Source: Azoarcus sp. CIB
GTDB taxonomy: Bacteria; Pseudomonadota; Gammaproteobacteria; Burkholderiales; Rhodocyclaceae
Assembly: GCF_001190925.1 (NCBI RefSeq)
Contig: NZ_CP011072.1
Span: 1,736,001 to 1,800,000 of the forward strand
Length of the DNA stretch: 64,000 nucleotides
Reading direction: 5' to 3'
The position numbers were made by a program, and so were the translations under genes. Positions within the stretch are counted from its first letter, which is position 1, and every line of letters begins with the position of its first letter. This document shows positions 1 through 14,001 of this stretch, piece by piece. Under the pieces are notes generated by a model that saw only the letters and a list, made by a program, of their open reading frames with translations, searched no databases and was not told the DNA's origin.

Positions 1-827
1 GTGGCGCCGGCCTTCTGCAGCGCCTCGATTTCGCGCAGCACGCTGTCGCGGTCGGCGGAAACCTCGGTCTCGCCCTTCTCAGCGTGCGAGTAATCCTCGA
101 CCTTGTAGGCGGTGGTCGTGACGAGGATCTCAAAGCGGTCGGCCTTCTCTTCGTAGGCGGGCAGGCTCTTCATGTAGGCGATGCAGCCCGGGAGGTCTTC
201 AGCGGTCACGAGCCAGGGGATCCAGCCGTCGCCGTGCACGGCGGCGCGGCGCATCGCAGCCTGCGAGTTGCCGCCGATGAAGATCGGCGGGTGCGGCTTC
301 TGTATCGGCTTGGGTTCGACGAGGATGTTGTCGAACTTGACGAAGTCGCCGTGGAACTTCGGATGCTCCGAGGTCCACACTTCTTTGAGCGCCTTGAGGT
401 ATTCGTCGGTCATCGGTCCGCGCTGTTCGAACGGAATGCCGAGGGTCTCGAACTCGCGTTCCAGGTGACCGACTGCGGTGCCGAGCGTGAAGCGTCCCCC
501 GGCGAGGAATTCCATCGTGCCGATTTGCTTGGCGAGCACCAGCGGATGGCGGTAGGGCAGCGCCAGGATGTAGGTGAGCATGTGGATGCGCTCGGTCGCG
601 CCCATCAACACTGCAGAGGCGGCGATGCCCTCGGCGAAGCGCGAACCCATCACCTCCTTCATGTCCGTGGGCATCACGATGTGCTCGGGGATTGTGAGCC
701 AGTCCCAGCTCAGGGAGTCGGCCTTCCGCGCATAGCGCAGGACTTCCGGGCCGCCGGCACGCGGCTCCCACGGGGCCATGGCGGCCGGGTAGTTGTTCAG
801 CGCAGGCGTTGCGAGGGCGAACTTCAT
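1..827 (-). CDS. LLM-class flavin oxidoreductase, C-terminus outside window
   Basis: Luciferase-like TIM-barrel oxidoreductase; the family uses FMN or F420 and acts on many substrates, so the substrate cannot be predicted. 275 codons are visible from the ATG at 827-825; the frame stays open to the window edge. Family landmarks seen: MKFALATPAL first strand, TIPEHI (residues 45-50), GGRFTLGTAVGH (110-121) and PPIFIGGNS (180-188). It lies 54 nt downstream of a CoA-transferase gene on the same strand, so it is probably the distal gene of the degradation operon. A role in oxidising the acyl substrate or its product is inference. Whether the cofactor is F420 or FMN is not decidable here. Confidence 0.85.
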   Translation of the reverse strand, partial: MKFALATPALNNYPAAMAPWEPRAGGPEVLRYARKADSLSWDWLTIPEHIVMPTDMKEVMGSRFAEGIAASAVLMGATERIHMLTYILALPYRHPLVLAKQIGTMEFLAGGRFTLGTAVGHLEREFETLGIPFEQRGPMTDEYLKALKEVWTSEHPKFHGDFVKFDNILVEPKPIQKPHPPIFIGGNSQAAMRRAAVHGDGWIPWLVTAEDLPGCIAYMKSLPAYEEKADRFEILVTTTAYKVEDYSHAEKGETEVSADRDSVLREIEALQKAGA

Positions 828-881: not shown

Positions 882-2102
882 TCAGTAGATGATCCGGTCG
901 CGCTTGAGGCGCTCGTATTCCGCTTCCGGGATGTCGAGGAGCGTCCTGAACACGCGCTCGTTGTCCTGCCCGATGGTCGGGCCGGGCCGGATGTCGGGAC
1001 GGCTGCGGCTGGTTTTCACGTAGGCTCCGTAGATCGTTTCCTTGAAGCCCAGCGGGTGCGTGACCTCGATGAAGGTGTCGCGGGCGCGGTATTGCGGGTC
1101 ATGCAGCAGGTCGCCGACGTTCAGCACCGGGGACGCGGCGACGCCGTGCTCCTGCAGGCGCGCAGCGAGCTCGCGGTCGTCGAATCCGCGCGTCCATTGC
1201 GCGATGTGTTCGTGCAGGCGGTCGATCGTGGACACCCGCGCGGGCAGCGTCGCGAAGGCGGGCGTCGCGGCCCAGTCAGGGTTGCCCATCGCGGCGACGA
1301 GGCCTTGCCACTCCTCGTCCCGGCAGACGGCGATACTGATCCAGCGGTCGTCGCCGCGGCAGGGGAAGACGCCGTGCGGCGCTGCGGCGGCGGTGGGGTG
1401 TTCGTTGCTCTTCGGCCCGCCGCTGCGCCCGTTCAGCGTGTAGTCCATCCACGCCGGGGCAACCATCTGCATCACCGCCTCCTGCTGGGAGAAGTCGACG
1501 TGCTGGCCCGTACCGGTGTTGCGGCGGTGGTTGAGGGCGGCGAGCACCGCAAACGCACCGAAAATGCCCGCGAAGGGGTCCGAGAAGGCGTTCTCGACCG
1601 GCACCGGGTCGCCGCCCTTGTAACCGACGAGGCTGTCGAGGCCCGTCAGCGAAGTGAGGCTCAGGCCGTAGGTGCGCACGTGTTCGAGGGGACCGTAGAG
1701 GCCCGCCGCGGGCATCGAGAACAGGATGATGTCCTCCTTCACCTCGCGCAGGCGCTCGTAACCCAGGCCGAGGCGTTCCATGACGCCGGGGCCGAAGTTC
1801 TCGACGACGACATCGGCGGTCGCGATCAGCCGCAGCGCGAGTTCTAGCGCTTCGGGTTCCTTGAGGTTGAGCGACACCGATCCGTTGCCCGCCCAGCAGG
1901 CGTGGTTCGACAGGCTGCGGTCTGGCCCGGGGATGCCGTCGGCGAAGGGCGGCAGGTTGCGGGTCATGTCGACGCGCGCGGCCGATTCGATCTTGAGCAC
2001 CTCGGCGCCGAGGAAGCCGAGCGTCTGCCCGACCACTGGCCCCGCCCACACCCAGCCGAAATTGACGACGCGGACACCCTTCAGCGGCAGTTCGTTGGCC
2101 AT
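882..2102 (-). CDS. Class III (CaiB/BaiF) CoA-transferase, first of a tandem pair
   Basis: Family III CoA-transferases move CoA from a donor such as succinyl-CoA to a carboxylate through an aspartyl-CoA intermediate. The 406-residue length is normal. Seen: N-terminal CoA-binding motif with GAEVLKIES, and NAFSDPFAG containing the likely catalytic Asp (D175). The ATG at 2102 is preferred over the one at 2108 because GGGGGA sits 7 nt before it and almost touches the other. It follows another CoA-transferase gene by about 15 nt. The pair recalls BbsE/BbsF, the two subunits of succinyl-CoA:benzylsuccinate CoA-transferase, so the two products may form a heteromer. Its acceptor acid is unknown. Confidence 0.9.
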   Translation of the reverse strand: MANELPLKGVRVVNFGWVWAGPVVGQTLGFLGAEVLKIESAARVDMTRNLPPFADGIPGPDRSLSNHACWAGNGSVSLNLKEPEALELALRLIATADVVVENFGPGVMERLGLGYERLREVKEDIILFSMPAAGLYGPLEHVRTYGLSLTSLTGLDSLVGYKGGDPVPVENAFSDPFAGIFGAFAVLAALNHRRNTGTGQHVDFSQQEAVMQMVAPAWMDYTLNGRSGGPKSNEHPTAAAAPHGVFPCRGDDRWISIAVCRDEEWQGLVAAMGNPDWAATPAFATLPARVSTIDRLHEHIAQWTRGFDDRELAARLQEHGVAASPVLNVGDLLHDPQYRARDTFIEVTHPLGFKETIYGAYVKTSRSRPDIRPGPTIGQDNERVFRTLLDIPEAEYERLKRDRIIY

Positions 2103-2117
2103 GTCCATTTCCCCCGA

Positions 2118-3350
2118 TCAGATCACGTTGCGTTGCGCGAGTCGGCGCACGTCCGCGGCGCCCAAGGCCAACAGTTCGCGGTAGACCTCTGCGTTGTGCT
2201 GGCCGAGCAGCGGCGCAGGGCGTTCCGGTCCGCCGGGGCAGGCCGGGAGCTTGAAGGGGGCGCCGAGGTTCTTCAGCCGGCCGAGCTGCGGGTGCTCCAT
2301 GTCGACGAAGTAGTCGCGCGCCTGCAGATGCGGCTGCGCGGCGGCCTCCGCGATGGTGAACACCGCCGTCACCGGGCAACCCGCGGCTTGGCACTTCTCC
2401 ATGATTTCCATCTTGCCGTGCTGCAGCGTCCACTCGCGGATGAACTCGTAGATGACATCTGCATTCTGGGCGCGCGAGTACATGTCCTGGAACATCTCCA
2501 GGCTCGCCCATTCCGGGTCGTCCATCACCTTGCGCAGCCCGTTCCACTGGCCCGGTTCGAGTGCCAGCATCCATACGTGACCGTCGCGACAGGGCAGGAT
2601 CGTGGCTGGCGCGCCGAGCGGCATGCCGACACCGGTGCGCTTGTCGAAGCGGCCTTCCTGCGCGTAGCAGCCGATGTTCTGGCCGCCAACGAAGGTCGCG
2701 GCGATCGCCTCGGCGCAGGACACGTCGACCTGCTGCCCGCCCCCGGCGAGCTCACGGCCATAGACGGCGGCGAGTCCCCATGCCGCCGCGGTGACCGCGC
2801 CGAAGTAGTCCGCGGCGAAAGTGCCGTGCTCGAGCGGCGTTTCGCCTGGCCGACCGCAGTAGCGGGAACTCGCGCCGGACAGGTGGTAGGCGTTCAGGTC
2901 GTAGCCGTTCCAGCCGCTGTAGGGGCCGGTCTGCCCGAAGGGAGTGATGGAGATCACGACCAGGTCGGGGTTGGTCTCCGCAAGGGTCGCGTAATCGAGC
3001 CCCCACGCACGCATGCGCTGCGGCAGGTTGTTCTCGATCAGCACGTCGCTGTGTTCCAGCAGGCGGAGGAACAGCCGACGGCCTTCGGGGTGGGCGACAT
3101 CGCAGGTGATGCCGCGCTTGTTGGTGTTGTGGAAGAAGTACAGTCCGCTCTTTTCGACGTGCGGCACGTCACCCGGGAACGGCCCCGCAGTGCGCGCAGC
3201 GTCGCCCTCGGGCAGCTCGACCTTGATCACGTCGGCCCCGTAGTCGCTGAAGAGTTTCGCGCAGTAAGGGGCCGAGACCATCTGGCCGAAGTCGATGACG
3301 CGGATGCCGGCCAGAGCGCCGCGCGGGGCGGCAGGGGTGTTGGGGATCAT
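2118..3350 (-). CDS. Class III (CaiB/BaiF) CoA-transferase, second of a tandem pair
   Basis: 410-residue member of the family III CoA-transferases. Seen: GIRVIDFGQMVSAPYC and GADVIKVE at the N-terminus, FGQTGPYSGWNGYD near residue 140, and HGTFAADYFGA with a candidate catalytic Asp (D181). Start at 3350 is supported by GGAGG 6 nt upstream. It is a paralogue of the next gene downstream rather than a duplicate: the two differ throughout. Tandem divergent CoA-transferases in one operon suggest either a two-subunit enzyme or two successive CoA-transfer steps. I favour a heteromer by analogy with BbsEF, but cannot show it. Confidence 0.9.
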   Translation of the reverse strand: MIPNTPAAPRGALAGIRVIDFGQMVSAPYCAKLFSDYGADVIKVELPEGDAARTAGPFPGDVPHVEKSGLYFFHNTNKRGITCDVAHPEGRRLFLRLLEHSDVLIENNLPQRMRAWGLDYATLAETNPDLVVISITPFGQTGPYSGWNGYDLNAYHLSGASSRYCGRPGETPLEHGTFAADYFGAVTAAAWGLAAVYGRELAGGGQQVDVSCAEAIAATFVGGQNIGCYAQEGRFDKRTGVGMPLGAPATILPCRDGHVWMLALEPGQWNGLRKVMDDPEWASLEMFQDMYSRAQNADVIYEFIREWTLQHGKMEIMEKCQAAGCPVTAVFTIAEAAAQPHLQARDYFVDMEHPQLGRLKNLGAPFKLPACPGGPERPAPLLGQHNAEVYRELLALGAADVRRLAQRNVI

Positions 3351-3366: not shown

Positions 3367-4140
3367 TCAGGGCAGGAACTTCAGCAGGCGTTCGGGGGCG
3401 TGCGTGAAGTCGCGCACCGTGCCCGCGCTGCGCAGCGCCCGTTCGACGGCCCCTGCGTTGTACGAGTAGCAGGCGCCCTGCGGCATGCCGTCGGAGATGC
3501 CCGGATGCGCTGCGACCGGTTCGAAGCTGTGGCGCCGCGCCTGGGCGACGAAATACGCGCGCTGCAGTGCGACGGCGGCCTCGCGCGGCATGCCGTCGAA
3601 GGCTTGCGACGCCCATGCGTGGAAGCCACGCATCACCGGCTTGCCGGCGAGTTCTTCCGGCGCGGTGATCGTGTGCGCGCGTGGCGTGGCGATGTGCCAT
3701 TCGTGGACTGGAGCGCCGTCGCAGGCGATGCGCGCGCGGGTGATGCCGTCGCGTTCGTCGTCTACCGCCATGTCGTAAAGGCGCGTCGTCCGTTCCTCGC
3801 CGCGGTGTGCGGCGGCATGCGCGACGGCAAGGATCGTCAGGTCGTGCATGTGCGTGCAGTTGTCGCCCGGGACGAGGCGGCTGCGCAACGTCGCTTCGTC
3901 CTCGTCGAGGCGATGGCCGATGGCGCGCTGGAGCGGGCGTACCGCCTCGGCGCAGGTGTTGAACGGGATGCGCATCGGCTGCACCTCGACGGTCGTGACG
4001 CGCTCGCCGTCGTGCCACAGGCGCAGGCGGAAGCCGTGGTTGCAGTCCTCCAGCTCGACGGCCACCTCGCCCGGCGCCACGCTCACGCGGAGGCGACGAC
4101 GGAAGATGCCGGTTCCGTAATGCGGGTTCGGGTGCGCCAT
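3367..4140 (-). CDS. DUF2889-like protein of unknown function
   Basis: 257 residues, soluble, no signal peptide or membrane segment. The NCTHMHDL segment near residue 94 (with a Cys and two His) and the overall layout resemble DUF2889, a family without known function that recurs beside CoA-ester degradation genes. Several conserved-looking His, Cys and Asp residues could bind metal, but no catalytic motif is recognisable. A GAGGAAG ribosome site precedes the ATG at 4140. It sits between the CoA-transferase pair and an acyl-CoA dehydrogenase with short gaps (16 and 37 nt), so it belongs to the operon. Assignment to the family is from memory of its pattern and is moderately sure. Confidence 0.65.
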   Translation of the reverse strand: MAHPNPHYGTGIFRRRLRVSVAPGEVAVELEDCNHGFRLRLWHDGERVTTVEVQPMRIPFNTCAEAVRPLQRAIGHRLDEDEATLRSRLVPGDNCTHMHDLTILAVAHAAAHRGEERTTRLYDMAVDDERDGITRARIACDGAPVHEWHIATPRAHTITAPEELAGKPVMRGFHAWASQAFDGMPREAAVALQRAYFVAQARRHSFEPVAAHPGISDGMPQGACYSYNAGAVERALRSAGTVRDFTHAPERLLKFLP

Positions 4141-4177: not shown

Positions 4178-5341
4178 TCAGACGGTGAAGGGATCGGGGA
4201 TGGTCCGCTCGCCGTCGCGGTCGAGGATGTCGGCGGCGATCAGCTCCTCGAGGTAGGACGAATCCCACCAGTTCATCTGCAGCTGCTTGGCGCGGCGGTA
4301 GAAGAGCTGGATGTCGTAGTCGAGCGTGAAGCCGATGCCGCCGTGCACCTGCTGGGCCATGTGCGTGACCTCGCGGAAGGCGCGGCAGGCGAAGAGCTTG
4401 GCCATCGCCGCGAGGCGCTTCACGTCCTTGCCCGAGGCGTGCGCCCAGGCGGCTTCGAGCACCAGCATCTTCGCGCCGTCGACCACGGCGCTCGCGTCGG
4501 CCATGTAGTGCGCGAGCGACTGGAAGGCGCCGATCGGCTTGCCGAACTGCTCGCGCTCCTTCGAATACTGGACGGTGATCTCGAGCGCGCGTTCGGCGCC
4601 GCCCGCGGCCCAGGCCGCGAGCAGGATGATGCCGTCGTACATCGCGGCCTCCCACGCCTGCCAGCCCCGCCCTTCGGCGCCGACGTGGTTCTCTGCACTG
4701 ACCCGGACATTGTCGAAATCGACGCGGTACTGGGTGTCGGAAGCCATCGAGTGCTGCTGCGTCAGCGTGACGCCGGGCGCCTTCGTATCGACGAGGAACA
4801 GGTCGATGGCGTCCGCGGCCTCGCCCGTGCGGGCCAGCACGAGGAGCTGTTGCGCGGCGGCGGCGTGGAACACGTGCCGCTTGGTGCCGGACAGGACATA
4901 GTCGTCGCCCTGCCGCGTGGCGCGCAGCTGCACGCCCGCCGGGCCGAAGCCGCCGTCCGGTTCCAGCCACGCCGGCACCACGACGGTGTCGCCGGTTGCG
5001 ATGGCGCCGAGCAGCCCGCGCCGGTCCGCGGCTTCGCCCGCGTGACGCAGCGCCCCCGCCACCATCACCGTGCTGGGGAAGTAGGGTCCGGGCGCGAGGT
5101 GGCGGCCGAGCTGCTCGTAGATCACGGCGCAGTCGAGCATGCTCAGTCCCATGCCGCCGTCTTCCTCGCGGATCGCCATGCCGAGCAGGCCCGTCTCGCG
5201 CATCTGCTGCCACAGGTCGGCGGGGACGCCCATCGGGTCGTTTTCCATCTTGCGCACGACGTCCGTGCCGCTGAAGTCGGCGCACAGGTTGCGGGTCATG
5301 TCGCGGAGCATGTTCTGCTCGTCGGTGAACTTCAGGTCCAT
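4178..5341 (-). CDS. Acyl-CoA dehydrogenase, probable non-canonical subunit
   Basis: 387-residue flavoprotein of the acyl-CoA dehydrogenase fold. Seen: N-terminal helical domain, YSKEREQFGKPIGAFQSL in the C-terminal domain, and QVHGGIGFTLDYD near the C-terminus. The position that carries the catalytic Glu in medium-chain enzymes lies in RAKQLQMNWWDSS and has no Glu, and the alternative isovaleryl-type position reads MYDG rather than LDxER. Start at 5341 follows AGAGG. The other dehydrogenase of the operon keeps the alternative Glu, so the two may form an alpha2beta2 enzyme like the ChsE1-ChsE2 type. That pairing is inference; a separate second dehydrogenation is also possible. Confidence 0.88.
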   Translation of the reverse strand: MDLKFTDEQNMLRDMTRNLCADFSGTDVVRKMENDPMGVPADLWQQMRETGLLGMAIREEDGGMGLSMLDCAVIYEQLGRHLAPGPYFPSTVMVAGALRHAGEAADRRGLLGAIATGDTVVVPAWLEPDGGFGPAGVQLRATRQGDDYVLSGTKRHVFHAAAAQQLLVLARTGEAADAIDLFLVDTKAPGVTLTQQHSMASDTQYRVDFDNVRVSAENHVGAEGRGWQAWEAAMYDGIILLAAWAAGGAERALEITVQYSKEREQFGKPIGAFQSLAHYMADASAVVDGAKMLVLEAAWAHASGKDVKRLAAMAKLFACRAFREVTHMAQQVHGGIGFTLDYDIQLFYRRAKQLQMNWWDSSYLEELIAADILDRDGERTIPDPFTV

Positions 5342-5397
5342 TGGCAGCCTCTTGAAAGTGTGGCGGGCGAAAAGGTCGCGGTCATGGCGCGGGTGCC

Positions 5398-5886
5398 TTA
5401 CGGCAGCCAGCGATCGCCCTTGCGGGTCCAGGGATTGTCGGCAGCGTCGGCAGGGATGGCGACGCGTGCGCGGCCGGTCGTGCGCACTTCGTCGCCGACG
5501 GAAATCGTCAGCTCCAGGTCGGCCCAGTGGCATCCGGCTGCGTCGCGGGCGAGCTTGCGCACGATCCCGGAAAAGCACATCTCGTCGCCGGGGAAGACGG
5601 ATTTCTTCATCTCGAAGCGCAGGCGCCCGAGGCGGCCTTTCGGGCCGGTCCAGTCGGTGATGTAGCGTTCGAACCAGGCGGCGTTGTTGGGCGTGTTGAT
5701 GAATATGTTATTCACGCCGTTGCGCTCGACCGCGAAGTCCTTGTCATGGTGCATCGGCCGCCAGTCGCGACTCGCCAGCGCACCGAGCACGATGGTCGTC
5801 GCGCTCACGGGGTGGCGCAGCGCGGGCATTTCCTGGCCTTCGGCGATGTCGGCGGCAGTGATGCCGCACACCTCAGTCGCGCTCAT
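5398..5886 (-). CDS. MaoC-type (hot-dog) enoyl-CoA hydratase, catalytic subunit
   Basis: 162-residue single hot-dog domain. The hydratase-2 motif is present as DWRPMHHD with Asp41 and His46 in the places of the usual catalytic pair, so this chain should add water to an enoyl-CoA. It overlaps the upstream MaoC-like gene by 4 bp (ATGA at 5883-5886), which favours equal synthesis. The partner lacks the motif, matching heterodimeric hydratases such as ChsH1-ChsH2 where one subunit is catalytic. A 56-nt gap separates it from the next dehydrogenase gene. Substrate not known; a branched or cyclic enoyl-CoA is inferred from context. Confidence 0.85.
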   Translation of the reverse strand: MSATEVCGITAADIAEGQEMPALRHPVSATTIVLGALASRDWRPMHHDKDFAVERNGVNNIFINTPNNAAWFERYITDWTGPKGRLGRLRFEMKKSVFPGDEMCFSGIVRKLARDAAGCHWADLELTISVGDEVRTTGRARVAIPADAADNPWTRKGDRWLP

Positions 5887-6428
5887 TGCTCGGGCCTCCG
5901 GTAGCCCAGCATGGTGTAGATCTCGGTGCCGACCCATTCGCCATGCTGGTTGGTGGTTTCGACGTCGATTGTCCAGAATCGCCCGATGCCCAGCTTCGTC
6001 TGTTTGAGGGGGCCGATGCTGCGCACGATCTGGCGCGTCGTCAGCCGATCCCCGGGGCGTACCGGTTCGCCGAACACGGCTTCGTTGCTGGCGACGACCG
6101 CCTCGGGCAGGTCGAGGATCTGCTTGAGGTCGAAATGCGTCTGCAGCGCCTTGCGTTCGCCAGTCGCCCCCGGTGCCCAGTAATGCGGGCGGAACCACAC
6201 GGACATCATCGTCGGCGGCGCGATCGGGCCGCCCGTGACGGCCTCGGCGACGGCCGGATCCCAGAAAATCGGGTTGCCGTTCTGCACGGCCGCGCAGGTG
6301 TTGTAGACGTAGCCCATCTCGATCGGGAACTCGCCGGGCTCTTCGTAGAGCGGTGTGTCGATCATGCGCTGCGCCTCGTCGGGCAGGTCCGTGGCGTTGC
6401 GGCTGGCTTGCGGATCGCGCGCGCTCAT
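5883..6428 (-). CDS. MaoC-like dehydratase N-terminal-type protein, likely non-catalytic partner
   Basis: 181 residues with the FAS1/MaoC N-terminal hot-dog layout (GGPIAPPTMM, FGEPVRPGDRL, GEWVGTE). At the hydratase motif it reads NGNPIFWDPAVA, so the catalytic His is replaced by Phe. It probably binds the acyl chain while the downstream overlapping subunit does catalysis. The ATG at 6428 overlaps the stop of the racemase-like gene (ATGA, 6425-6428); a GTG at 6437 is a weaker alternative. Coupling on both sides (4-bp overlaps) makes it the middle of a tightly translated block. Heterodimer formation is inferred from adjacency and the lost motif. Confidence 0.83.
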   Translation of the reverse strand: MSARDPQASRNATDLPDEAQRMIDTPLYEEPGEFPIEMGYVYNTCAAVQNGNPIFWDPAVAEAVTGGPIAPPTMMSVWFRPHYWAPGATGERKALQTHFDLKQILDLPEAVVASNEAVFGEPVRPGDRLTTRQIVRSIGPLKQTKLGIGRFWTIDVETTNQHGEWVGTEIYTMLGYRRPEQ

Positions 6429-7585
6429 TCGATGCACCCCGCTGCGCGCAATTCGGCGATCTGGCCGGCGGGGAAGCCTGCTTCGGCGAGGATCGCGTCG
6501 GTATCGGTATGGCCCGGTGGTGCGACGTGGTGGACGGGCTGCTTGCGATCACCGCCGGCGAGCACCGGCGCGAGCTGTTCGAAGGCGCCACGGCGCGGAT
6601 GTTCGGCCGCCATGAAGGCCTTGCGCTCGCGGAACTGCGGATGCGCGGCCACTTCGGGGATCGCCAGCACCGGTGCGACGCAGGTGTCTGCCCCGGCGAG
6701 CAGGGTGACCCATTCGTCGCGGCTGCGCGTCAGGAAGCGTGCCGCGAAGGCCGCGCGCATCGCGTCCTGCTGCGCGTCGTCGTACTGGTGGTCGGCGAAG
6801 GCTTCGAGCTCGAGCAGTCGGCACAGGTTGCGGAAGAAGTGGCCTTCGATCGCGCCCACCGCGATATGCCTCCCGTCGCCCGCGGTATACACGCCGTACC
6901 ACGCGTATTTGCCGGTCAGCACGCCCGAGCCGGGCGCGGTGTCCTCGCCGGTCGCGAGGTACTGGTCGAGGTACAGCGACATCAGGTTCAGCACGCCGTC
7001 GGTGATCGCCACGTCGAGGCATGCGCCTTCGCCGGTGCGCTCCCGGCGCAGCAGCGCCGCGAGGATGGACTGCGCCGCGTGCATGCCGCCGCCCGCGCCG
7101 TCGGCGAGCGTCGCGCCGGGCAGGGCGGGGCGGCCTTCGGCGTCGCGCCCGCTGCAGGCGAGGAAGCCGGACATCGCCAGGTAGTTGATGTCGTGCCCGA
7201 CCCACTGCGCGCACGGCCCGTCCTGGCCGTAGCCGCTGGTGGAGCAGTAGATGATCTTCGGGTTGCGCGCGGCGATGTCGGCATAGCCCACCCCGAGCCG
7301 GGCGGCGACGCCGGGGCGGTAGCTCTCGATCACGACGTCCGCCTGCTCCGCCAGACGCAGCAGGGTGTCGCGGCCGGCGTCGGACTTGAGGTCGAGGCGG
7401 ATCTTCTGCGTGCCGCGCCCCGCACCGTAGGCGTGGAAGACGGGCTCGACCTGCTTGGCGCCCTTGGCCGCGACCGGCGCGACCTTGACGATGCGCATGC
7501 CGAAATCGGCGAGGATGCGCGAAGCGCGCGCGGCCGGGCCGACGCTCGCCAGATCGAGAACGGTGTAGCCGTCGAGGAAGTTCAT
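6425..7585 (-). CDS. Alpha-methylacyl-CoA racemase-like class III CoA-transferase family protein
   Basis: 386 residues. Unlike the two CoA-transferases downstream, it carries the racemase signature GHDINYLAMSG with His131 and an Asp162 in ATLADGAGGG, spaced like the His/Asp acid-base pair of alpha-methylacyl-CoA racemase (31 residues apart here). The C-terminal TGEGACLDVAITDG segment is also typical. Such enzymes invert the alpha-methyl centre of 2-methylacyl-CoA esters so that a stereospecific dehydrogenase can act. It starts 15 nt after the dehydrogenase gene and overlaps the MaoC-like gene. An epimerase for another alpha-branched CoA ester is the main alternative; a true CoA-transferase is less likely. 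Confidence 0.82.
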   Translation of the reverse strand: MNFLDGYTVLDLASVGPAARASRILADFGMRIVKVAPVAAKGAKQVEPVFHAYGAGRGTQKIRLDLKSDAGRDTLLRLAEQADVVIESYRPGVAARLGVGYADIAARNPKIIYCSTSGYGQDGPCAQWVGHDINYLAMSGFLACSGRDAEGRPALPGATLADGAGGGMHAAQSILAALLRRERTGEGACLDVAITDGVLNLMSLYLDQYLATGEDTAPGSGVLTGKYAWYGVYTAGDGRHIAVGAIEGHFFRNLCRLLELEAFADHQYDDAQQDAMRAAFAARFLTRSRDEWVTLLAGADTCVAPVLAIPEVAAHPQFRERKAFMAAEHPRRGAFEQLAPVLAGGDRKQPVHHVAPPGHTDTDAILAEAGFPAGQIAELRAAGCIE

Positions 7586-7600
7586 CGCGCGTCCGTCCGG

Positions 7601-8782
7601 TCAGAAATTCTTCGGCAGGTCGAGCTTGCGCTTGGCGATGATGTTGCGCTGCACCTGCGACGAGCCGCCGCCGATGGTGTCGATCACCGTGTAGGTGTAG
7701 CAGCTCTCCCCGCGGCCCTTGAGCGGCGCGTCCGCGGTGTGCAGCGCGAGCTGCCCGCCGGGGCCGACGATATCCATCGTCGCATCGGCCAGACGACGCG
7801 ACAGCTCGGTGGCGTACAGCTTGTATTCGGAGGCCTCGACAGTCGGGGTCTTGTTGCTGTTGAGCGCGGCATCGACGAACTTCACGCCGAGCACTCGCGC
7901 AACTTCGCACTCGGTCGCCAGTTCGGCGATCCTGTGGCGCACCACCGCGTCATCCTTGAGCGGCTTGCCGTCGCGCTTGGCCGTCTTCACGTGGTCGGCC
8001 AGCACTTCCACGCGCCCGCGGATCGGCGCGAACGTGAACATGCTGAAGCGTTCGATGTCGAGCGCTTCGGCGATGTACTGGAAGCCCTTGTTGAGCTCGC
8101 CGACGCGGTAGTCGTCATGCACGAACACGTTGTCGAAGAACACGGCGTTGGTGCGCTCGTTGCCCATCGTGTACATCGGGTGGATGGTGAGGCCCGGGTC
8201 GTCCATGCGCACGAGGAACAGGCTGATGCCATGGTGCTTCGGCGCGTCCGGATCGGTGCGCGCGCCGACCCAGTACCAGTCGGCGAAGTGCGCGGAGGTC
8301 GTGAACACTTTCTGGCCGTTGAGCACCCAGCCGTCGTCCTTGCGCTCGGCCTTCAGGCGCATCGCCGCGGCGTCCGAGCCGGCCGACGGTTCCGAATAGC
8401 CGACGGCGAATTCGATCTTCGCGTCGAGGATCTGCGGCAGGAATTCGCGTTTCAGCTTTTCCGAGCCGACATTGATCAGCGTCTTGCCGATGATGCCCAC
8501 GCCCTTGCCGATTTGCGGCGCGCCCACCGAGGATAGTTTTTCGTTGAGCAGGTATTCGAAGAAACCTTCGCCTTCCTGACCGCCGTATTCCTTCGGCCAC
8601 GTGATGCCGAGCCAGCCCTTTTCGGCGACCTTTTTCATGAAGGCGCGGCGCTCCGGCGTATCGCACACCTGTGCCATGTTTTCACGAGTGACGTCCATGA
8701 CTTTCGGGTCATGGTTTTCCTTCAGGAATTGATCGACCTCACGCAGGAATTCGCATTCTTTTTCGGAAAACTCAAAATCCAT
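7601..8782 (-). CDS. Acyl-CoA dehydrogenase, first gene of the minus-strand operon
   Basis: 393 residues. Seen: GYSEPSAGSDAA (about 128-139) and GWVLNGQKVFTTSA (151-164) of the middle domain, and GGGSSQVQRNIIAKRKL at the C-terminus. The medium-chain-type Glu is replaced by Gly there, but LDIER with Glu244 matches the catalytic Glu site of isovaleryl-CoA dehydrogenase, so this chain can be catalytic. GGGGA lies before the ATG at 8782. It heads the operon and faces etfA across a 535-bp divergent region; electrons would pass to ETF and then to the membrane Fe-S protein at 12034-14001. Similarity to FadE/ChsE proteins of sterol side-chain pathways is my reading of the motifs. Confidence 0.92.
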   Translation of the reverse strand: MDFEFSEKECEFLREVDQFLKENHDPKVMDVTRENMAQVCDTPERRAFMKKVAEKGWLGITWPKEYGGQEGEGFFEYLLNEKLSSVGAPQIGKGVGIIGKTLINVGSEKLKREFLPQILDAKIEFAVGYSEPSAGSDAAAMRLKAERKDDGWVLNGQKVFTTSAHFADWYWVGARTDPDAPKHHGISLFLVRMDDPGLTIHPMYTMGNERTNAVFFDNVFVHDDYRVGELNKGFQYIAEALDIERFSMFTFAPIRGRVEVLADHVKTAKRDGKPLKDDAVVRHRIAELATECEVARVLGVKFVDAALNSNKTPTVEASEYKLYATELSRRLADATMDIVGPGGQLALHTADAPLKGRGESCYTYTVIDTIGGGSSQVQRNIIAKRKLDLPKNF

Positions 8783-9317
8783 GTCTGTCCCCGCATCAGG
8801 AATTAATCAAGACGGCCGGGAAGTCGGCTATTGCCGCCATGCCGCCAATCGTTGAGCCGATTCTAGATTCCGATTTCGGGCGATGTTGTCCGGCGGCAGT
8901 TCCGAAGTGGCCGCAGGAATGTCAGATAAGGCCATGCCCGCCCTGGCAGGGCGCGGGCGACCGATCCTTGCATCGCGCAACCTGATTCGAACGAGATTTA
9001 TCCACGCGCGCCGCAGACCCTCCCCCCTCCCTTCAAGGGGAAGGAGCCCTTCGATCACCGGCTGAGGTTCGTTGCTAATCAAGTCGCCAAACGCCTTGCG
9101 TGACAAGGGTTTCGGGCTGGCCGGAAATGAATTGGCAAAGTCCCCTTCTGATTCGAAGCGGCGCAGTGCGAAAAAGGGCAGGCAATTAGACTGGATTCAG
9201 GAATCGGGATCCGGGACTGCGCCGATAACCCGCAGCAAAGTGGCCGCATGGAAATAGCACTGCCTCTGCCGGATGCCCGCTCGATCAATTCGTCGCACTG
9301 AACAAGGAGTCCTCGCT
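8783..9317. promoter_or_regulatory. Divergent intergenic control region between the two degradation operons
   Basis: 535 bp with no convincing gene between the divergent operons; it must hold promoters for both. Dyads seen: CGCCCT-GGC-AGGGCG at 8939-8953, CCTTG-N5-CAAGG at 9094-9108, and a CCCTTCAAGGGG palindromic repeat core at 9029-9040 that also occurs near 39.75 kb. AAGGAG at 9304-9309 is the etfA ribosome site. No regulator gene is present in the cluster, so a factor encoded elsewhere must act here. Which dyad is an operator cannot be decided from sequence alone. Confidence 0.5.
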
Positions 9318-10286
9318 ATGGCCGTTGTGCTGTGTTCCTGGGGTGATGCCATCGACGGCGGTACCGAAGAGGCGCTGACGCTCGCACGCAAGCTGGCGGG
9401 CTCGACCGGGGTGGAATTGCGCTGGCTGGTGCTCGGCAGTGCCGCGGACGCGGCGACCGAAGTGGCTGCCCGTTACGGCGTGAATCGCCTCGACCGCATC
9501 GAGGGAGCCGCGCAGGGGGTGACTGCAGGGCCGTCCGGACCGGATGCGCTCGTCGCAATCCTCGCCGCTTACTGCGGCAGCACCTCGCCCAGCACGGTGC
9601 TGTTCAATCAGGGCGCCGAATCGCGCGTCATCGCGGCGCGCCTCGCGGGCCGTCTCGGCGTGCCCGTGGTCGCAAACGTATTCGATGCCGAGCCCGCCGG
9701 CAACGGGCTGCACGTGACGGCGACGGCCTTCGGTGGCGACACGCATGCGGTCTACGAACTGACGGCGCCGGTCGCGGTGCTGTCGGTGACGACCACCTCG
9801 ATCGTCGCGGCGCCCGCCGCCGTGCCCACCGCCGTCGTGCAGCACGCCGTCGCGCTCGACACGGGCGCCGTCGGCGAACGCTTCGAAGTCATCTCCTCGC
9901 CGCAGGTCGCCGAAGCGCGTCTCGAGGACGCCCAGATCATCGTCTCGGGCGGTCGGGGCCTCGGCAGCAAGGAGAACTTCGAGATGGTCAAGGACATGGC
10001 GGCAGCCATAGGCGGGATGTGGGGCGGCTCGCGCGCCATCGTTGATGAGGGCTGGATCGACTCGTCGCATCAGGTCGGCCTCACCGGCAAGGTCACGCGT
10101 CCGGCGCTGTATATAGCCGTCGGCATCTCCGGCGCCAGCCAGCACATGGCCGGCTGCTCCGCGGCGAAGACCATCGTCGCGATCAACAAGGATGCCGACG
10201 CGTCGATCTTCCGCTACGCGCACTACGGGGTCGTGGGCGACTGCCTGGAGATCCTGCCCGAACTCATCAAGGCGGCGAAGGCATGA
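9318..10286 (+). CDS. etfA: Electron transfer flavoprotein alpha subunit (orphan)
   Basis: 322-residue ETF alpha chain. The C-terminal FAD domain is complete: [12 protein letters not shown], a GGSR/DEGW block, [24 protein letters not shown] and [11 protein letters not shown]. It would carry electrons from the acyl-CoA dehydrogenases to the Fe-S quinone reductase of the same operon. The ATG at 9318 has AAGGAG 8 nt upstream; longer in-frame starts lack one. ETF normally works as an alpha/beta dimer with etfB adjacent, but no beta gene exists here or elsewhere in the window. The DUF35 gene overlaps its stop (ATGA, 10283-10286). A beta subunit supplied from another locus is the simplest explanation. 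Confidence 0.93.
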
Positions 10287-10732
10287 CGGAGCGTTACACG
10301 ATGAATGAGATTGCCAACACTGCCGCCCTGCGCGAGCCCTGCGTCCCGGGACTGTTCTCGGAAGAGGAGGGCGCGCGCCTGCACGGTGCCCGCTGCAATT
10401 GCTGCAACACGCCGTACTTTCCGCGGGTGGCCACCTGCCGCAATCCGTCGTGTGACGAATCGCGGATCGTGCCCTGCACGTTCGGGGGCGAGGGAAACCT
10501 CTGGAGCTATTCGGTCGCGGACTTTCCGCCGCCGCCGCCCCACCGCTACGACCAGCCCTTCGTCCCGTACGCCATCGGCGTGGTCGACCTCGACAGCGGC
10601 CTGCGCGTGGTCGGGCAGATGGTGGATCCCGCCGAGGCCATGCAGGTCGGCGCGCGCGTCCGGCTCGTGATCGAACCGATCCATCACGGTGACGGCAAGG
10701 CCTTCACGTCGTGGAAATTCAAACTGCTCTGA
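10283..10732 (+). CDS. Zn-ribbon/OB-fold (DUF35) partner of a thiolase-like enzyme
   Basis: 149 residues. An N-terminal rubredoxin-like zinc ribbon has four Cys in CNCCNTP and CRNPSC, followed by an OB-fold ending in [12 protein letters not shown]. Proteins of this type bind tightly to thiolase-like partners: BbsA with BbsB, IpfE with IpfD, or the DUF35 domain of ChsH2 with the aldolase Ltp2. The following gene, 14 nt away, encodes such a partner, so a complex is very likely. Start codon overlaps the etfA stop. The OB domain is thought to help bind the CoA ester; it is unlikely to be catalytic by itself. Confidence 0.88.
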
Positions 10733-10746
10733 GCTCCGGGGGAAAC

Positions 10747-11940
10747 ATGCAGGAAGTCGTCGTTCTGGGAGTAGGGATGCATCGCTTCGGCAAGACCGGC
10801 GATGCGATCGTGGGGGAGAAGTCCGTCACCGAGTTGTGCCGCCATGCGGTGGACATGGCGATGAAGGACGCCGGCGTGTCGTGGAAACAGGTGCAGGCGG
10901 TGTCCGCCGCGAGTTCGCGTTTTTCGGGCGGGAAGGGCTGGGGCCTGAACGGCAACGACATCGTCGAGGATTTCGGCTGCACCGGCATCCCCGTCTACAA
11001 CCTCTCGGCCGGCTGCGCCGCCGGGGGCAACGCGTTCAACATCGGCTACTCGCTCGTCGCCGGCGGCATCCATGATCTCGTCCTCGTAGTCGGCGGCGAG
11101 GTGATGCCCAAGGGCATGATCCAGACCTCCGGCGTCGAGGACGCGAACGATCCCGAATACCTGCGCCAGCGCTGCGTCGGCATGCCAGGCCCGGCCTTCT
11201 GGGCGACCCTCGCGCGGCGCCGCATATTCGACTACGGCACGACCGAGGAGCAGATGGCCAAAGTCACCGTGAAGGCGCGCAAGTGCTCCGAGAGCAATCC
11301 CTTCGCGCGCTTCCAGAAGGCCGTGTCGCTCGACGAGGTGCTCGCGTCGCCCTACGTCAGCAATCCGCTGCGCCTGTTCGAGATCTGTCCGGTGTCGAAC
11401 GGCGCCGCCGCGGCGGTGATCTGCTCGAAGGAGATGGCGCGCCGCTTCACGTCGAAGCCGATCACGGTCGCAACCAGCGCCGTCGCCACCATCGGCTTCG
11501 ACGACGCCCTGCCGCGCAGCCTCGCCGGCCCGGTCCCCTCCGGCCCGAGCTTCCACACCGAGGCCAAGTCCGCCGTGATGAAGGCCTTCGAGCGTTCCGG
11601 TATCGGCCCGCGCGACATCAGCTTCACCGAATTGCAGGACAACACCTGCTACTACGAGCTCGCCTTCCCCGAGGAATGGGGGTTGTGCGAACCCGGCGAG
11701 GCCGAGCGCCTGCTGGAGGCGGGCGAGACCGCGCCCACCGGCCGGATGCCGATCAACCCTTCGGGCGGCTTCGTGTCCTTCGGCGAGGCCACCACGGCGA
11801 TGGGCGTGTTCCAGATCGCCGAACTCACCTGGCAGTTGCGCGGCCAGGCGGGCGGACGGCAGGTGCCGGATGCGAAGGTCGGGCTTGCCCAGACCAACGG
11901 CCTGGGTGGCAACGCGACCGCCGCCATCCTCAAGCGCTGA
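10747..11940 (+). CDS. Thiolase-like (SCP-x/Ltp2 class) protein, probable acyl-CoA aldolase
   Basis: 397 residues of the lipid-transfer-type thiolase family. The nucleophile position is kept (Cys90 in SAGCAAGG). Other thiolase residues are not: the HDCF-type motif reads ELQDNTCYYEL (Gln297 for His), the GHP motif reads FGEATTAMG (Glu347 for His), and the C-terminal loop is TNGLGG. Tyr302 and Tyr303 lie beside the changed motif. Ltp2-type retro-aldolases likewise lack thiolase catalysis residues and use tyrosines. With a DUF35 partner next to it and no hydroxyacyl-CoA dehydrogenase in the cluster, C-C cleavage of a beta-hydroxyacyl-CoA by retro-aldol is the best guess. A BbsB-like true thiolase is the alternative. 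Start 10747 follows GGGGGA. Confidence 0.85.
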   Translation: MQEVVVLGVGMHRFGKTGDAIVGEKSVTELCRHAVDMAMKDAGVSWKQVQAVSAASSRFSGGKGWGLNGNDIVEDFGCTGIPVYNLSAGCAAGGNAFNIGYSLVAGGIHDLVLVVGGEVMPKGMIQTSGVEDANDPEYLRQRCVGMPGPAFWATLARRRIFDYGTTEEQMAKVTVKARKCSESNPFARFQKAVSLDEVLASPYVSNPLRLFEICPVSNGAAAAVICSKEMARRFTSKPITVATSAVATIGFDDALPRSLAGPVPSGPSFHTEAKSAVMKAFERSGIGPRDISFTELQDNTCYYELAFPEEWGLCEPGEAERLLEAGETAPTGRMPINPSGGFVSFGEATTAMGVFQIAELTWQLRGQAGGRQVPDAKVGLAQTNGLGGNATAAILKR

Positions 11941-12033: not shown

Positions 12034-14001
12034 ATGTCCACGATCTCCGCACTCGACTACACTCTCCTCGCGATCCTGCTGGGGGGCGCACTGGTCAGCA
12101 TGCTCCTGGGCCTGAAGCGTCGCGCGGCGCGGATTGCAGCCGGCAAGGCGACCCCGGTCGGTGTCAGCCCGGGGCAGGCGTGGCGCGAGCGCCTGAACTT
12201 GCGTGCCTTTGCGTCGCGCGGCCTGTTCGCGTCGCGCCTCATCAAACGCCCGGTGGCCGGGCTCGCCCATGGCCTGATGTTCGTCGGTGCACTCGTCGCC
12301 ATCTTCGGCCACGCGGCCTTCCTGCTGAGTTTTGCCGGCGTGCCGGTGTATGAGGGGAAGTTCGGCCTTGCCGTGATGGAACTCGGGCGCGAACTCGCCG
12401 GCCTGCTGATGTTCGTGGGCGTGGCCTTCTTCCTCGTGCGGCGCCTCACGCGCCTCGAACGCCTGAACACCGGTGGCTTCCGCCGCGGCTTCGTCGCGAT
12501 GGAAGTGTTGTTCCTCGTCACCATCGCGGCCGGCTTCGCGGCCGAAGCCTTGCGGCTGGCGGCACCCGGATCCTTCAGTCGCGGCGAGTTCTTCGGCCTC
12601 GCGCTCGCGGGCGGGCTGCGCGACATCGGGCTCGGTGCCGACGCCCTCGGCTCGCACCTCGCGTGGTGGCTGCACGGCCTGCTGGGCGTCGCGTTCATCG
12701 GCCTGATCGCGCACACGCCGCTGTCGCACATGCTGCTTGCGCCCGCCAACGCCGCGCTCGCCCGCCGCCGCCCGGGGATCACGCTCGCCCCGATCGACTT
12801 CGATGCCGATCCGCCGGAGGGAAAGGAGGTCTCCTTCGGTGCCGCGAAACTCGCCGATCTCGACCGCAAGAAGCTGCTCGATTTCTCCGCCTGCCTGTGG
12901 TGCGGGCGCTGTCAGGAAGTGTGTCCGGCGGTGCAGACGGGCAAGGCATTGTCGCCAAAGAAGGTCATGACGACCTGCGCGAGCTACCTCGAAAGCGGAC
13001 GCCTCGACGATGTCGCGCTGATCGACGAAATCGGCCTGCAGGCGGTGTTCGACTGCACCACCTGCGCCGCCTGCGTGGAGGAGTGTCCCGCGAGCAACAG
13101 CCCCGCTGAAACCATCCTCGAGTTCCGCCGCCATTTCGTCATGGATCGCTCGGAAATGCCGGACACGCTCGCGCTCGCCAACCGCAACCTCGAATCACGC
13201 GGCCACCCCTTCGTCGGCACTGCCGCCAATCCGCACGACTGGCGGAAGGGGCTGGACGTGCCCTTCTTCGAGGCCGGAAAGTCCGAATACCTGCTCTGGA
13301 TCGGCTGCTCGGTCGCCTTCGAGCCGCGCGCCCAGGAAGTCGCCCGCGCGATGGTGCGCATTCTGGAGACCGCCGGGGTGTCCTACGGCATCCTCGAAGA
13401 GTCGCGCTGTACGGGCGACCCGGCGAAGATGGCCGGCGACGAGATGCAATTCGTCGAGATCGCCCAGGCCAACATCGAAGACTTCCGCGAGCGCAAGATC
13501 CAGAAAGTGATCACGATGTGCGCGCACTGCTTCAACAGCTTCGACCGTTACTACCCCGAACTCGGCGCCGACTGGCAGACGATCCCGCACTCCGTGCTGA
13601 TCGACCAGTTGATCACCGACGGCCGCCTGCAGGTCCTGCGCAACGACGCCGAGAAGATCACCTTCCACGACCCCTGCTACCTCGGCCGCCACAACGACAT
13701 CCTTGCCGAACCCCGCCGCGCCCTCGGCGCCGTCGCCCAACTCATCGAAATGCCGCGCAACCGCAAGGACAGCTTCTGCTGCGGCGCGGGCGGTGGCAAC
13801 TACTGGGGCGGGAAAGGTGGTACTGCGCGCATCAACGACGTGCGCATGCAGGAAGCTGTCGACACCGGCGCCGCGAAGGTTGCGACCTCGTGCTCGTTCT
13901 GCTTGCTGATGCTCACGTCGAGTGCGTCGAAACACGGGGAGGAAAGGCGCGTGTTTGATGTCGCGGAGTTGGTGGCGGAGGCGCTGCCGACGCGCGCGTA
14001 A
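12034..14001 (+). CDS. Membrane Fe-S ETF:quinone oxidoreductase (EMO-type)
   Basis: 655 residues in three parts. Residues 1-245 hold about five membrane helices resembling the nitrate reductase gamma cytochrome b domain. Next come two 4Fe-4S motifs, CLWCGRCQEVCP starting at Cys287 and CTTCAACVEECP starting at Cys341. The C-terminal half has two CCG (HdrD-type) domains, with CAHCFNSF and FCCGAGGGNYW. This is the layout of EMO proteins that pass electrons from ETF to the quinone pool. Placement behind etfA fits re-oxidation of the two acyl-CoA dehydrogenases. A weak ribosome site and a 93-nt gap precede the ATG. A heterodisulfide-reductase-like role is the alternative name for the same family. 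Confidence 0.9.
   Translation: MSTISALDYTLLAILLGGALVSMLLGLKRRAARIAAGKATPVGVSPGQAWRERLNLRAFASRGLFASRLIKRPVAGLAHGLMFVGALVAIFGHAAFLLSFAGVPVYEGKFGLAVMELGRELAGLLMFVGVAFFLVRRLTRLERLNTGGFRRGFVAMEVLFLVTIAAGFAAEALRLAAPGSFSRGEFFGLALAGGLRDIGLGADALGSHLAWWLHGLLGVAFIGLIAHTPLSHMLLAPANAALARRRPGITLAPIDFDADPPEGKEVSFGAAKLADLDRKKLLDFSACLWCGRCQEVCPAVQTGKALSPKKVMTTCASYLESGRLDDVALIDEIGLQAVFDCTTCAACVEECPASNSPAETILEFRRHFVMDRSEMPDTLALANRNLESRGHPFVGTAANPHDWRKGLDVPFFEAGKSEYLLWIGCSVAFEPRAQEVARAMVRILETAGVSYGILEESRCTGDPAKMAGDEMQFVEIAQANIEDFRERKIQKVITMCAHCFNSFDRYYPELGADWQTIPHSVLIDQLITDGRLQVLRNDAEKITFHDPCYLGRHNDILAEPRRALGAVAQLIEMPRNRKDSFCCGAGGGNYWGGKGGTARINDVRMQEAVDTGAAKVATSCSFCLLMLTSSASKHGEERRVFDVAELVAEALPTRA

Follow-up and report, generated by a model that had tools for sequence, protein, structure and literature searches.

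We analysed a 64,000-nucleotide stretch of the genome of the Aromatoleum strain Azoarcus sp. CIB (the window; contig NZ_CP011072.1, positions 1,736,001–1,800,000 of 5,257,030 bases), centring on two divergent operons that encode acyl-CoA dehydrogenases, MaoC-type hydratases, class III CoA-transferases and a thiolase-like protein with a DUF35 neighbour (Table 1). Coordinates are those of the window, negative ones being counted back from its base 1. Gene families were called by Pfam and NCBIfam profile scans of the window translations, and they agree with the open reading frames and families given in an earlier note made from the letters alone; two coordinates were corrected, the first MaoC gene ending at 5398 and the ATG of the thiolase-like gene lying at 10747. 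On the sequence evidence set out below, we favour, with a probability of roughly 60%, the reading that both operons belong to a catabolic island for the steroid nucleus, of the 2,3-seco type and situated beside genes of the 9,10-seco type.

The two MaoC genes encode a hydratase pair of the ChsH1/ChsH2 type. At E ≤ 0.01, the sole PDB matches of the protein encoded at 5398–5886 (query 5464–5898) are 4w78_B and 4wnb_B (1.1e-12), the short, dyad-bearing ChsH chain, and those of the protein encoded at 5883–6437 are 4w78_A and 4wnb_A (1e-4), the long chain. The sequence RDWRPMHHD of the former aligns with RDFQDVHHD of the short chain, and the same query matches a 143-residue neighbour of Ltp2 in a mycobacterial locus at 30.6%. 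The Asp/His motif RDWRPxHH is found in 19/19 rows of ChsH1-like proteins and the His is replaced by Phe or Tyr in 19/19 rows of ChsH2-like partners, although some of the 19 represent one gene fetched twice. Extracts of the literature describe the same division in steroid hydratases, in which ChsH1 alone has the dyad and the MaoC part of ChsH2, having lost it, holds the steroid rings (PMC11321319, Shy paper). Unlike ChsH2, the window protein has no fused DUF35, which is instead a separate gene; for C. testosteroni TA441, separately produced MaoC and DUF35 halves are described as working too (PMC12502768, in extract). Our naming follows chain length, dyad and position beside Ltp2; the molecule labels are swapped between PDB entries 4w78 (short chain = ChsH2) and 4wnb (short chain = ChsH1).

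The acyl-CoA dehydrogenase encoded at 7601–8782 finds its best PDB matches in Tcur3483 (6wy8_B, 2.2e-58; 6wy9_A) and 4x28_A (4.8e-56), which we take to be steroid enzymes, and keeps the place of the catalytic Glu in an LDIERF motif present in 4/4 rows. For its smaller partner (4178–5341) the PDB ranking puts 4l1f first and Tcur3481 (6wy8_A) second. Compared at the position that by-eye alignment pairs with the Glu of LDIERF, 16 rows are divided between Glu (6), Asp (7) and Gln (3), a mixture that does not support a non-catalytic role for the smaller protein. The CoA-transferase-fold protein encoded at 6425–7585 has GHD[ILV]NY in 15/15 rows; this type of His motif is presumably that of AMACR/MCR racemases, and a racemase role is predicted. 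In this way the ChsH-type pair, the ChsE-like dehydrogenase (for 7601–8782) and, at motif level, the racemase named in the earlier note were all borne out.

A candidate for the cleavage step lies outside the window. The Sal-like protein of L011:4237–5400 (-15763; L numbers denote retrieved loci) matches TcLtp2 at 1.8e-80, has YDCF and MGGAA and no N-terminal Cys, and is followed by a DUF35 gene of its own (L011:5415–5846), and thus presents the residues of Sal and Ltp2. Extracts of the Sal paper name, for CtSal, the Tyr and Cys within YDCY and, for TcLtp2, the Tyr of YDHF with a second Tyr, and Sal1 is described as having no N-terminal Cys of the thiolases (PMC8399759, in part). The Sal–Shy(DUF35) bile-acid aldolase (PDB 9myr) likewise has a DUF35-bound thiolase fold, with YDCY where the upstream protein has YDCF. 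About 26 kb separate this pair from the thiolase-like/DUF35 pair of the window, so the island contains two thiolase-fold/DUF35 pairs, with aldolase residues only in the outside one. Judged by these residues, the outside Sal-like/DUF35 pair, rather than the window's own, is the likeliest aldolase. Four genomes (L158–L161) have a further Sal-like paralogue in which YDPF replaces YDCF, and in L160 and L161 it stands next to CoA-transferases.

The earlier note had suggested a look for steroid-ring genes nearby, and homologues of KshA, HsaA and delta4-ketosteroid dehydrogenase (KSTD) were found upstream, within 82 kb. The KshA homologue is matched in PDB at 1e-20 only by KshA structures, and the delta4-KSTD homologue matches PDB 4at0 at 1.5e-90. 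The HsaA-like protein scores 378.5 bits against a cut-off of 450; HsaB/C1-type reductase and HsaE-type proteins also fall below their cut-offs, and the HsaF and HsaG types above theirs. A region near 2.34 Mb was rejected as a steroid cluster, its PF00890 and PF01144 matches sitting among other genes as judged from translations.

The operon on the minus strand continues beyond the window edge for 7.3 kb on the same strand, its genes no more than about 160 bases apart. The subunits of the molybdenum enzyme found there carry MoCoBD_1/2, FAD_binding_5 and Fer2_2, the xanthine-oxidase-family make-up of Mo, FAD and 2Fe-2S parts that belongs to AtcABC, itself described as a xanthine-oxidase-family enzyme in three parts (PMC5554518, in extract). 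Extracts of a further paper report atcABC for Azoarcus, Aromatoleum and Thauera butanivorans, and kshAB as well for the first two (PMC9980454); T. butanivorans carries the window block (L032). In Aromatoleum toluclasticum (L182) the genes of the extension stand in identical order at 86–97% identity.

Table 1. Genes and features of the two divergent operons and of the extension beyond the window edge.
Feature	Position	Strand	Basis or remark
CoA-transferase-like gene	-7266	-	read from translation only
CoxM, CoxS, CoxL	-2813 to -5784	-	operon extension
SnoaL-like protein, apparent signal peptide	-1855 to -1199	-	inside operon
Enoyl-CoA hydratase	-1086	-	operon extension
F420-type LLM oxidoreductase	-96 to 827 (3..827 inside window)	-	TIGR03619 203.2 bits, cut-off 166.9
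Class III CoA-transferase	882–2108	-	PF02515 323.3 bits
Class III CoA-transferase	2118–3350	-	PF02515 336.5 bits
DUF2889 protein	3367–4140	-	PF11136 36 bits
Acyl-CoA dehydrogenase, unequal partner	about 4178–5341	-	PF00441 and others
ChsH1-like MaoC hydratase with Asp/His motif	about 5398–5886	-	21.6 bits, under Pfam cut-off of 27
ChsH2-like MaoC partner, His replaced by Phe/Tyr, 184 aa	5883–6437	-	MaoC only, DUF35 not fused
AMACR/MCR-like class III CoA-transferase	6425–7585	-	PF02515 289.1 bits; GHDINY motif
Acyl-CoA dehydrogenase, probably catalytic	7601–8782	-	best PDB matches; LDIERF
Divergent intergenic region	8783–9317	.	between the two operons
ETF-alpha	about 9318–10286	+	PF00766 114.3 bits, PF01012 63.6 bits
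DUF35 protein, four-Cys zinc ribbon and OB fold	10283–10732	+	PF01796 57.8 bits
Thiolase-like protein, Cys90/Glu347 'GEA' family	about 10747–11940	+	profile scans, motifs, tree, fold
Fe-S/CCG (HdrD/TfrB-like) protein	12034–14001	+	PF02754 108.3 bits and 4Fe-4S models

The earlier note recorded the absence of a 3-hydroxyacyl-CoA dehydrogenase, and a gene for one just outside the window would have counted against its reading. A 3HCDH_N profile search of the genome gave 13 places at E ≤ 0.001, 10 of them above 150 bits, none of which lies between genome positions 856,630 and 1,982,332, and hence none of the 3HCDH type was found just outside the window. About five SDR-like genes at other places in the island are, to judge by their translations, possible hydroxy-dehydrogenases, so secondary alcohols could still be oxidised.

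These genes suggest the following route. A CoA-transferase would activate a bulky steroid-derived acid, the AMACR-like enzyme would set the alpha-carbon, and an acyl-CoA dehydrogenase would desaturate the product, its electrons passing through electron-transfer flavoprotein (ETF) and the Fe-S membrane protein to quinone. The ChsH1/ChsH2-type hydratase would then add water. If the beta position is occupied by a ring carbon, hydration yields a tertiary alcohol, which is closed to oxidation, and cleavage would therefore be aldolytic, most likely by the Sal-like/DUF35 pair. In the 2,3-seco acid the beta-carbon, C5, is such a ring carbon, from which we infer that hydration gives a tertiary alcohol. 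Extracts of two reviews give activation, double-bond formation, hydration and retro-aldol cleavage for this acid, and add that inhibitors of acyl-CoA dehydrogenases impair its degradation (PMC6678751; PMC8399759). More speculatively, breakdown of the B-ring could produce, at C10, an alpha-methyl compound on which the AMACR-like enzyme would act; if this were then released as propionyl-CoA, the C9 ketone of HIP would remain. The Fe-S/CCG protein encoded at 12034–14001 is possibly the oxidase that links ETF to quinone. No ETF-beta gene adjoins the ETF-alpha gene, and an ETF-domain gene read as beta lies near -35.6 kb. A scan of 8700–9400, covering the divergent gap, found no sigma-70-like promoter and no terminator.

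The gene set was sought in other genomes, as the earlier note had advised, and its order is repeated at 60–98% identity in A. toluclasticum (L028), T. butanivorans (L032) and a Halioglobus metagenome-assembled genome (MAG; L036), the last with both gene sets on one strand and DUF2889 absent; given this recurrence, chance is not an issue. The window thiolase-like protein is 98% identical in A. toluclasticum and 86% in T. butanivorans, and its relatives at 60–98% form a clade-I set of 18 loci (L028–L045) from 18 genomes, with DUF35 adjoining the thiolase-like gene in 18/18 and ETF-alpha in 16/18. A Sal-like match at 1e-90 occurs in 16 of the 18 genomes and reaches at least 66% identity in 14, all with YDCF. 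A ChsH1-like match at 1e-10 is present in every one and reaches at least 56% identity in 14, of which 12 keep the order AMACR–MaoC–MaoC–acyl-CoA dehydrogenase, in loci of only ~2.6–3.4 kb. One genome (G372) has the hydratase module and the Sal–DUF35 operon on the same strand of a single 17 kb contig (L183), and the window-type pair on another contig beside CoxL-type, NPD and ETF genes (L029). In 2/18 clade-I loci (L029, L039) less than 10 kb separates the thiolase-like gene from a CoxL-type gene. At 1e-60 or better, the thiolase-like protein is matched in 5/369 genomes of the class, own genome included, and a plasmid search at 1e-60 returned three records, at 36–44% identity. A DUF2889 protein accompanies the module in several genomes, its gene being whole in L028 and L032 and the first 48–66 residues lying at the edge of L162, L163, L165, L166 and L167; the model of this protein (pLDDT 55.6) was unusable, and the fold search gave no match at E ≤ 0.001.

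The published clusters with which the locus invites comparison are those for anaerobic 2,3-seco degradation in Sterolibacterium denitrificans and Thauera sp. GDN1, which share with it a three-subunit xanthine-oxidase-type enzyme, a CoA-transferase and an ETF gene (PMC6678751, legend of figure 11). Among the genes around AtcABC in S. denitrificans (SEDNCHOL_10168–10178) that legend lists no MaoC, acyl-CoA dehydrogenase or racemase, whereas here a block of such genes shares the operon of the molybdenum enzyme. F420 genes are also part of the figure (PMC6678751, figure 11, 2,3-seco clusters). Genes for F420 synthesis and use are found in the present steroid-type island as well (-51616 to -47851, L009:8384–12149; L011:9916–10434), comprising FbiC/CofGH-type, CofC, F420:NADP oxidoreductase, F420H2-quinone reductase and two LLM proteins, in a host that is a betaproteobacterium; a search of the open-access literature found no publication joining Aromatoleum, F420 and CoA transferase. 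Two further genes of the island deserve mention. A 6-oxocyclohex-1-ene-1-carbonyl-CoA hydratase (Oah) model scores 559.5 bits against a cut-off of 464.45 at genome positions 1,668,360–1,669,553 (L023:12360–13553), near the KshA/HsaA-type genes. A protein of the Old Yellow Enzyme (OYE) family (L011:10509–12494), relatives of which recur near the module, is closest in PDB to 2-naphthoyl-CoA reductase (6qkg, 5.3e-65) and is possibly a delta4-ketosteroid reductase.

Several observations weigh against assigning the operons to breakdown of the steroid nucleus. The HsaA-like, HsaB-type, HsaE-type and BbsA/BbsB scores are under their cut-offs, no HsaC-type gene was found in the island, and type I CoA-transferase pairs (IpdAB family) are found only elsewhere in the genome, with none in the island. 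The NPD protein at -36972 was rejected as IpdC, its closest match not being to the gene read as IpdC. The molybdenum enzyme would be AtcABC on the strength of its subunit make-up; its link to the block is seen only in this genome, A. toluclasticum, L029 and L039, and the T. butanivorans locus sequence stops inside the LLM gene, ahead of any molybdenum genes. In the smaller dehydrogenase the residue aligned with the Glu varies, so that a ChsE-type split into catalytic and inert subunits is not shown. Among the 18 clade-I genomes, four have no Sal-like protein at 66% and four no ChsH1-like protein at 56%, and these co-occurrence counts stand without a background rate; the open frame of one ChsH1-like copy (L168) contains a TGA in frame.

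The alternative that survives best is that the block degrades a C17 side chain of the bile-acid or sterol type, with propionyl-CoA released as by the igr operon. Its closest known enzyme set is indeed that of igr (ChsE1E2–ChsH1H2–Ltp2) and of C. testosteroni TA441 ORF40–44 (PMC12502768, in extract), which has in common with the locus two unequal acyl-CoA dehydrogenases, a catalytic and an inert MaoC, DUF35, a thiolase-fold protein and no 3HCDH; the island, moreover, holds an EchA19-like hydratase (288 bits, cut-off 400) as well as the Sal-like aldolase. The window operon differs from igr in adding the AMACR-like protein, CoA-transferases, DUF2889, LLM and molybdenum hydroxylase genes, and in that its neighbouring thiolase-like protein is without aldolase residues and its DUF35 is unfused. 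Because an AtcABC-like enzyme of nucleus breakdown shares the operon, we infer that a nuclear fragment is a likelier substrate than a side chain. The side-chain-removal logic of the earlier note keeps its hydratase pair and its tertiary-alcohol argument but probably not its side chain, whose degradation here, judged without a search for side-chain C25 dehydrogenase genes, we regard as rather unlikely. It is quite unlikely that the block serves a bulky or alicyclic acid other than a steroid (a terpenoid, naphthenic or hydroaromatic acid), its steroid-like neighbours being coincidental: thiolase-like relatives in Chloroflexota, Binatota and Myxococcota MAGs speak for this, as do the OYE protein and the Oah-type hydratase, but the ChsH2-type inert partner and the KshA and delta4-KSTD homologues point to steroids, and ChsH1-like matches in the MAGs of Chloroflexota and Binatota reach no more than 33–37%, with the whole module not shown there.

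Within the favoured assignment to nucleus breakdown, the role of the window's own thiolase-like/DUF35 pair has to be considered separately. The family was sampled as the best 80 of at least 549 relatives, from which 78 rows were taken from 79 loci (L049 was dropped for length). The window protein has Cys90, QDNT and GEA, with QDNT at the place of Y-D-[CH]-[FY] in Sal and Ltp2, and Cys90, Asp298 and Glu347 are kept in 78/78 rows. The catalytic Cys of SCP2- and BbsB-type thiolases is therefore kept and the His of GHP replaced by Glu347; a more distant relative (G157) keeps GHP. At the aldolase position the rows divide into QDN[TC] (18), [AP]DN[ST] (11) and YDLS (49), the last (L058–L106) being mostly actinobacterial, delta-proteobacterial and Myxococcota by record title. 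In a tree of 76 rows, several long branches of which were flagged, the protein groups with SCP2-thiolase and BbsB, and Sal and Ltp2 fall on the other side (100/99). Foldseek with the AlphaFold model (pLDDT 86.2) ranks SCP2-thiolase first, Ltp2 19th and Sal 50th. The adjoining DUF35 protein, whose Cys pattern is kept in the 16 rows compared, is a partner such as Sal and Ltp2 have, and as such it also recalls the benzoylsuccinyl-CoA thiolase BbsAB (PDB 7pxp), with which the window pair shares the N-terminal Cys and the side of the tree; BbsB keeps GHP, however, where the window protein has GEA, and the BbsB model scores 171.5 against a cut-off of 750.

The role first proposed for this pair, retro-aldol cleavage of what the hydratase makes, is improbable. 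In its favour are the DUF35 partner, the divergent position next to the ChsH/ChsE-like genes in the window and in L028 and L032 (on one strand with them in L036) and the Tyr kept at the aldolase position by the 49 YDLS relatives, but the protein has neither the Tyr nor the Cys/His of the aldolases and retains the nucleophilic Cys that Sal and Ltp2 lack. On motifs, tree and fold it was rejected as a Sal/Ltp2 aldolase; QDNT, Cys90 and Glu347 also set it apart from Sal–Shy. As a long shot, the Cys90/Glu347 protein with its DUF35 partner could be the A-ring opener of the anaerobic pathway, which, like the enzymes of B-ring cleavage, is stated to be unknown in extracts of reviews from 2019 (PMC6678751) and 2021 (PMC8399759). 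The Cys would attack the C3 carbonyl of the 1,3-dione made by AtcABC, breaking C2–C3, and the acyl group would be passed to CoA, so that the 2,3-seco acid would arise already as a CoA thioester, with no need of a ligase. For the Cys/Glu thiolase-fold family, no assigned reaction was found in a search of the open-access literature.

The block amounts to a short list of candidate genes for the oxygen-free steroid pathway, in a genus whose genetics are well established. A further outcome is a thiolase-fold family, represented in actinobacteria as well, in which a Cys/Glu pair is conserved.

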